Position numbers and translations under genes: made by a program. DNA of 64,000 nt from positions 1 through 64,000 of the forward strand of contig NZ_AMXA01000016.1 in assembly GCF_000310145.2 (NCBI RefSeq), written 5' to 3'. Shown here one piece after another: positions 53,668-56,189 of the stretch; within the stretch, counting starts at the first letter, position 1; the number at the start of each line of letters is the position of its first letter. The notes beneath the pieces are model-generated. The model was not told the DNA's origin, made no database searches, and saw only the letters and a list, made by a program, of their open reading frames with translations. This DNA is from Thauera sp. 28 (GTDB lineage: Bacteria > Pseudomonadota > Gammaproteobacteria > Burkholderiales > Rhodocyclaceae).

Positions 53668-56189
<2,522 letters not shown>

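Follow-up and report, generated by a model that had tools for sequence, protein, structure and literature searches.

The Calvin-cycle operon of Thauera sp. 28 raises a pointed question: does one in-frame stop codon in the RuBisCO large-subunit gene, cbbL, mean that this strain has lost the enzyme, or is the codon read through, or even absent from the organism? In the window, by which we mean the whole 64,000-nucleotide stretch of DNA analysed here, cbbL occupies positions 54723-56189 on the plus strand, with 488 codons ahead of its final stop. The answer we favour, at a probability of roughly 0.65 on sequence evidence, is a real and very recent nonsense allele that leaves the strain without RuBisCO. 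The sequence-only reading of this locus had offered recent loss, amber suppression, a mixed population and a base-calling error without ranking them; our analysis favours the recent loss, disfavours suppression, and allots base-calling error and mixed population jointly a minor but tangible share.

The cbbL frame and its surroundings

The relevant features of the window are as follows.

53668..54588, minus strand: cbbR, divergent LysR-type regulator; best NCBIfam match is a CbbR model, whose cut-off of 450 bits is not reached (275.6 bits)
54723..55487, plus strand: cbbL before the stop, 255 codons; PF02788 and PF00016 positions 1-97
55488..55490, plus strand: amber codon TAG, codon 256 of cbbL, from translation of the frame; TAC or TAT in 100 of 108 other loci
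55491..56186, plus strand: cbbL after the stop, 232 codons; PF00016 positions 99-299
56225..56650, plus strand: cbbS, RuBisCO small subunit; PF00101, 136.3 bits; no NCBIfam match
56679..57581, plus strand: cbbX, red-type RuBisCO activase; TIGR02880, 510 bits, over cut-off
57642..58730, plus strand: cbbF, class 1 fructose-bisphosphatase; NF006779, over cut-off
58749..59630, plus strand: cbbP, phosphoribulokinase; NF011997, over cut-off
59719..60957, plus strand: second pgk, called cbbK in the sequence-only reading; PF00162, 422.5 bits; sole NCBIfam match below cut-off

Translation with table 11 confirmed that the TAG at codon 256 is the sole internal stop of the frame, and both of its flanks match the RuBisCO large subunit, in keeping with the earlier claim of a gene conserved over its full length in one frame. 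The part before the stop comprises the N-terminal domain and the first third of the catalytic domain (residues 159-255 match PF00016 positions 1-97 in Pfam), the part after it comprises the remainder, and the TAG thus interrupts the catalytic domain between PF00016 positions 97 and 99. The stop codon aside, PF02788 and PF00016 span the full length, as in a form I large subunit; translation as one chain is interrupted by the TAG, and no suppressor was seen. A motif search located K180, K182, K206, D208 and E209 before the TAG and H298, R299, K338, S383, G408 and G409 after it, all of which we take to be catalytic residues of RuBisCO. Active-site residues had been claimed for both sides of the amber codon, and the motif-located residues do lie on both flanks.

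The ten other genes checked around cbbL contain no internal stops, which bears out the lack of decay described for the neighbouring cbb genes, and cbbR is 87-98% identical to its best match in the operon regions of 10 relatives. Two phosphoglycerate kinase genes (49635-50819 and 59719-60957) lie about 9 kb apart, and the copy after cbbP is the less conserved: its identity in the 10 relatives is 79-88%, where cbbL, cbbX, cbbF and cbbP reach 87-97%. Elsewhere in the window, positions 8723-8812 (plus strand) match RF02837 (anti-hemB, Burkholderia RNA 7) with a score of 71.5 bits (cut-off 49.5).

The genome is a draft of 4,312,555 bases (4.31 Mb) in 117 contigs, assigned to Thauera, with completeness 100 and contamination 1.4. 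A search for a second cbbL or cbbM had been proposed; searching the whole draft with PF00016 returned a single match, the cbbL of the window, marked with one TAG, and found no second RuBisCO large subunit. PF00016 is a broad model: within the control set it also matches three archaea and Bacillus subtilis, and it would be expected to pick up a form II gene or a further form I gene as well. On the favoured reading, a single mutation from TAC to TAG at codon 256 of the only large-subunit gene found would halt translation after 255 residues, within the catalytic domain. No active RuBisCO would be made and the Calvin cycle would be cut at carboxylation, with cbbR, cbbS, cbbX and the operon's remaining cycle genes staying open. 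From the DNA we infer a real base, an absent enzyme and a strain that would be incapable of autotrophic growth.

Codon 256 in relatives and the age of the lesion

PF00016 matches occurred in 29 of 61 genomes (this one and 60 relatives), and among the 33 matches listed only the cbbL of the window has a stop inside the match. Codon 256 was compared in an alignment of 110 loci, 80 of them the best 80 of 589 relatives; all but one (L029) cover the codon. Two loci that underlie the genus assignment, L031 (Thauera sp. UWPOB_THAU1) and L093 (T. phenolivorans ZV1C), each at 96%, appear to repeat the genomes G003 and G028, so that the 108 other loci are not all independent. In this set, which includes the best 80 of 589 relatives, 100 of the 108 encode tyrosine (79 TAC, 21 TAT), as had been asserted for form I enzymes, and the remaining eight encode isoleucine (3), cysteine (2), leucine (2) or valine (1). 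A stop occurs in none of the 108, best 80 of 589 included; a lesion absent from relatives is what a recent pseudogene should show. The valine (GTC) belongs to L032, the CbbL of Denitromonas halophila SFB-3, which is 91% identical, and suggests that position 256 may tolerate residues other than tyrosine. Closer to home, the suggested alignment with cbbL of near relatives gave TAC and no stop in each of the 10 Thauera operons used for it, so a single transversion suffices to give TAG.

Stop aside, cbbL looks to be under strong purifying selection: dN/dS between this gene and those of 10 relatives ranges from 0.073 to 0.135, with 0.082 against its relative G008, and the comparison pair G008-G005 gives 0.126. 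The part after the stop has the higher dN/dS in all 10 pairs that involve this genome (means 0.041 before and 0.176 after), and equally in 45 of 45 pairs that do not (0.049 and 0.180). Since the excess appears in every pair, with this genome in or out, it is inherent to the gene, and decay of the post-stop part was rejected as its cause. Fifteen codons are new in this cbbL, namely 11 synonymous changes, three residue changes (positions 32, 375 and 443) and the stop. With only three new replacements and a dN/dS of 0.082 against G008, selection shows little or no relaxation yet, as expected of a recent pseudogene.

A rough hand calculation bounds the age. If all three replacements are assumed neutral, the 95% Poisson upper bound of 7.75 events over 1,107 nonsynonymous sites sets a ceiling of about 0.007 substitutions per site on any neutral period. 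The synonymous distance to G008 is 0.17, and this genome's half of it comes to about 0.085; the ceiling is less than a tenth of that half, so any loss of cbbL would be very recent. An old pseudogene was rejected on the low dN/dS and the lack of other lesions in cbbL or its neighbours; open neighbours, low dN/dS, few new replacements and the same dN/dS pattern between halves as elsewhere together favour a recent loss over an old one. In the cbbL tree this gene groups with G008 (support 0.97); in a tree of seven neighbouring genes it stands beside the group G002, G017, G001, G003, G006 and G013 (support 0.848), a conflict for which local recombination is a possible explanation.

Readthrough, sequence error and a split enzyme

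Purifying selection lasting to the present would also be explained if leaky termination, or a suppressor tRNA that escaped recognition, let enough ribosomes pass the amber codon to give some full-length CbbL. We regard this as improbable. RF00005 matches at 51 places in the genome, and ARAGORN, run on the loci and stretches bearing them, resolved 44 distinct tRNA sequences; seven of these are present in two copies, which accounts for the 51. The proposed search for a suppressor with a CUA anticodon found none (CTA in the DNA) among these sequences, and a suppressor-like pattern of anticodon loop and T arm, covering one exact form only, gave no matches. The inventory may be incomplete, as tRNA-Arg(CCG) was not seen among the 44 either, and a tRNA set that falls short leaves some room for a suppressor. 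Release factor RF1, in contrast, is present well over cut-off (533.2 bits against 423.25), cbbF in the same operon ends normally in TAG, and the codon is no stop in any of the 108 other loci (including the best 80 of 589), so there is no conserved recoding signal. Stops were also absent from all 104 domain matches surveyed elsewhere in the genome (21 AMP-binding and 83 ABC-transporter; in one of these searches 150 of 163 first-look candidates were scored), so that in these two families in-frame TAG is not widespread. General recoding of TAG was rejected on RF1 and the 104 stop-free matches, and no suppressor tRNA turned up at the 51 tRNA places; the three lines taken together make recoding or suppression unlikely, against the suppression named in the sequence-only reading. 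More doubtful still is a functional Calvin cycle in which readthrough, for instance through an unrecognised suppressor tRNA, would supply full-length RuBisCO and termination efficiency would limit carbon fixation. ARAGORN also called a tRNA-Arg(GCG) at 6308-6393 (minus strand), missing from both the genome-wide tRNA search and the Rfam scan of the window, which is probably spurious.

The more serious competitor is that the TAG is not in the organism at all, having come from a wrong substitution call, from the assembly or from a consensus drawn across a mixed population. We hold this unlikely, at odds that still deserve attention. The rest of what was examined, in cbbL and across the operon, looks functional, and the absence of other decay there is expected under a sequence error as well as under a recent mutation; the assembly is moreover a draft in 117 contigs. 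Stops within coding-like frames were sought in 464 kb (the window and a further 400 kb) by a scan that misses frameshifts. It yielded 44 candidates, all read by eye: 43 looked like shadow frames or like one gene ending shortly before another begins, and by this judgement, made by eye with no family test, only cbbL resembled an interruption. The scan suggests that stops inside genes are uncommon in this assembly; it does not tell an error from a mutation, and that cbbL alone looked interrupted fits an error without deciding for it. Against an error stand the completeness of 100 and contamination of 1.4, the lack of any N in the 464 kb, and the 104 domain matches free of stops, by which stop-making errors would be infrequent. 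Single-base substitution errors are also rare in short-read drafts, a point that would count against error should this assembly be of that kind. A third option, in which the two parts of cbbL would be translated separately and their products join to form an enzyme, is scarcely credible: both parts are open and conserved, and an in-frame ATG lies at 55533, but the break falls within one catalytic domain (PF00016 positions 97/99), the first start codon comes 14 codons past the TAG with no ribosome-binding motif seen by eye before it, and none of the 108 other loci, including the best 80 of 589 relatives, has a stop at codon 256.

Autotrophy and comparison with known systems

A recent nonsense allele thus remains the preferred reading, and genes for inorganic electron donors bear on it only indirectly. 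SoxB and hydrogenase were searched in 23 of the 29 same-genus genomes, this one included, and SoxA in 14 of the 29; the six genomes left out of the SoxB and hydrogenase search (G004, G010, G015, G019, G026 and G027) all have completeness of 68-86. SoxB exceeded its cut-off in 9 of 23 genomes and SoxA in 8 of 14, with both found in G002, G005, G008, G017 and G028, a patchy distribution across the genus. The genome of Thauera sp. 28 has no SoxB over cut-off (a partial match reaches 73.8 bits against 550) and no match to SoxA. For NiFe-hydrogenase, the 23 genomes include full-length matches in G007 and G024 and strong partial ones in G023; here two partial matches, at 59.1 and 46.3 bits, exceed the Pfam cut-off of 25.8 and a further match falls below it, and weak pairs of this sort recur in most other genomes with a match. 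Seven of the 23 (G001, G003, G006, G007, G009, G013 and G021) carry a stop-free cbbL match without SoxB over cut-off, and these, G007 excepted, have weak or no hydrogenase matches; G009 is 89% complete. Because these seven keep a stop-free cbbL, the missing Sox genes argue only weakly for loss, and lost electron donors were rejected as proof of lost autotrophy. Judged from these genomes, missing donor genes alone do not imply its loss, as the genus keeps cbbL without such donors.

If the allele is real, the locus would show the loss of autotrophy at its very beginning, one base removing the key enzyme and leaving the remaining operon untouched, and annotation by operon content alone would credit the strain with an autotrophic Calvin cycle. 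Should the TAG be an error, the locus cautions against inferring metabolic loss from a single draft base.

Among solved structures, the two best sequence matches are the chains of PDB 1bxn and 5nv3, over residues 11-488 and 16-482. Both are large subunits of form I, red-type RuBisCO, and both have tyrosine where this gene has its amber codon; cbbL is followed by cbbS and cbbX. The Thauera enzyme presumably belongs to the form IC-like subtype of this group. Our literature search found no paper describing such a cbbL allele in Thauera. Recent bacterial nonsense pseudogenes in general carry a single inactivating change and no further decay, in a gene that is conditionally needed; the gene affected here is the only RuBisCO match of its genome, in an operon otherwise open. 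An amber mutation of Chlamydomonas rbcL, reportedly with suppression, likewise sits in an otherwise intact gene, whereas no suppressor tRNA was found in Thauera.

In E. coli K-12 ER2796, the rpoS396 allele, apparently an amber in an otherwise intact gene, is accompanied by an amber suppressor that relieves it at least in part (PMC4444293); it again differs from Thauera, whose genome yielded no suppressor tRNA. In Pseudomonas strain P14, cbbL mutants carrying a plasmid insertion together with nonsense mutations were unable to grow on methanol (PMC12875217); the stop codons in cbbL are alike, but those mutants are laboratory-made, include a plasmid insertion and belong to a different genus. Set beside these systems, the stop in Thauera cbbL is ordinary in kind.
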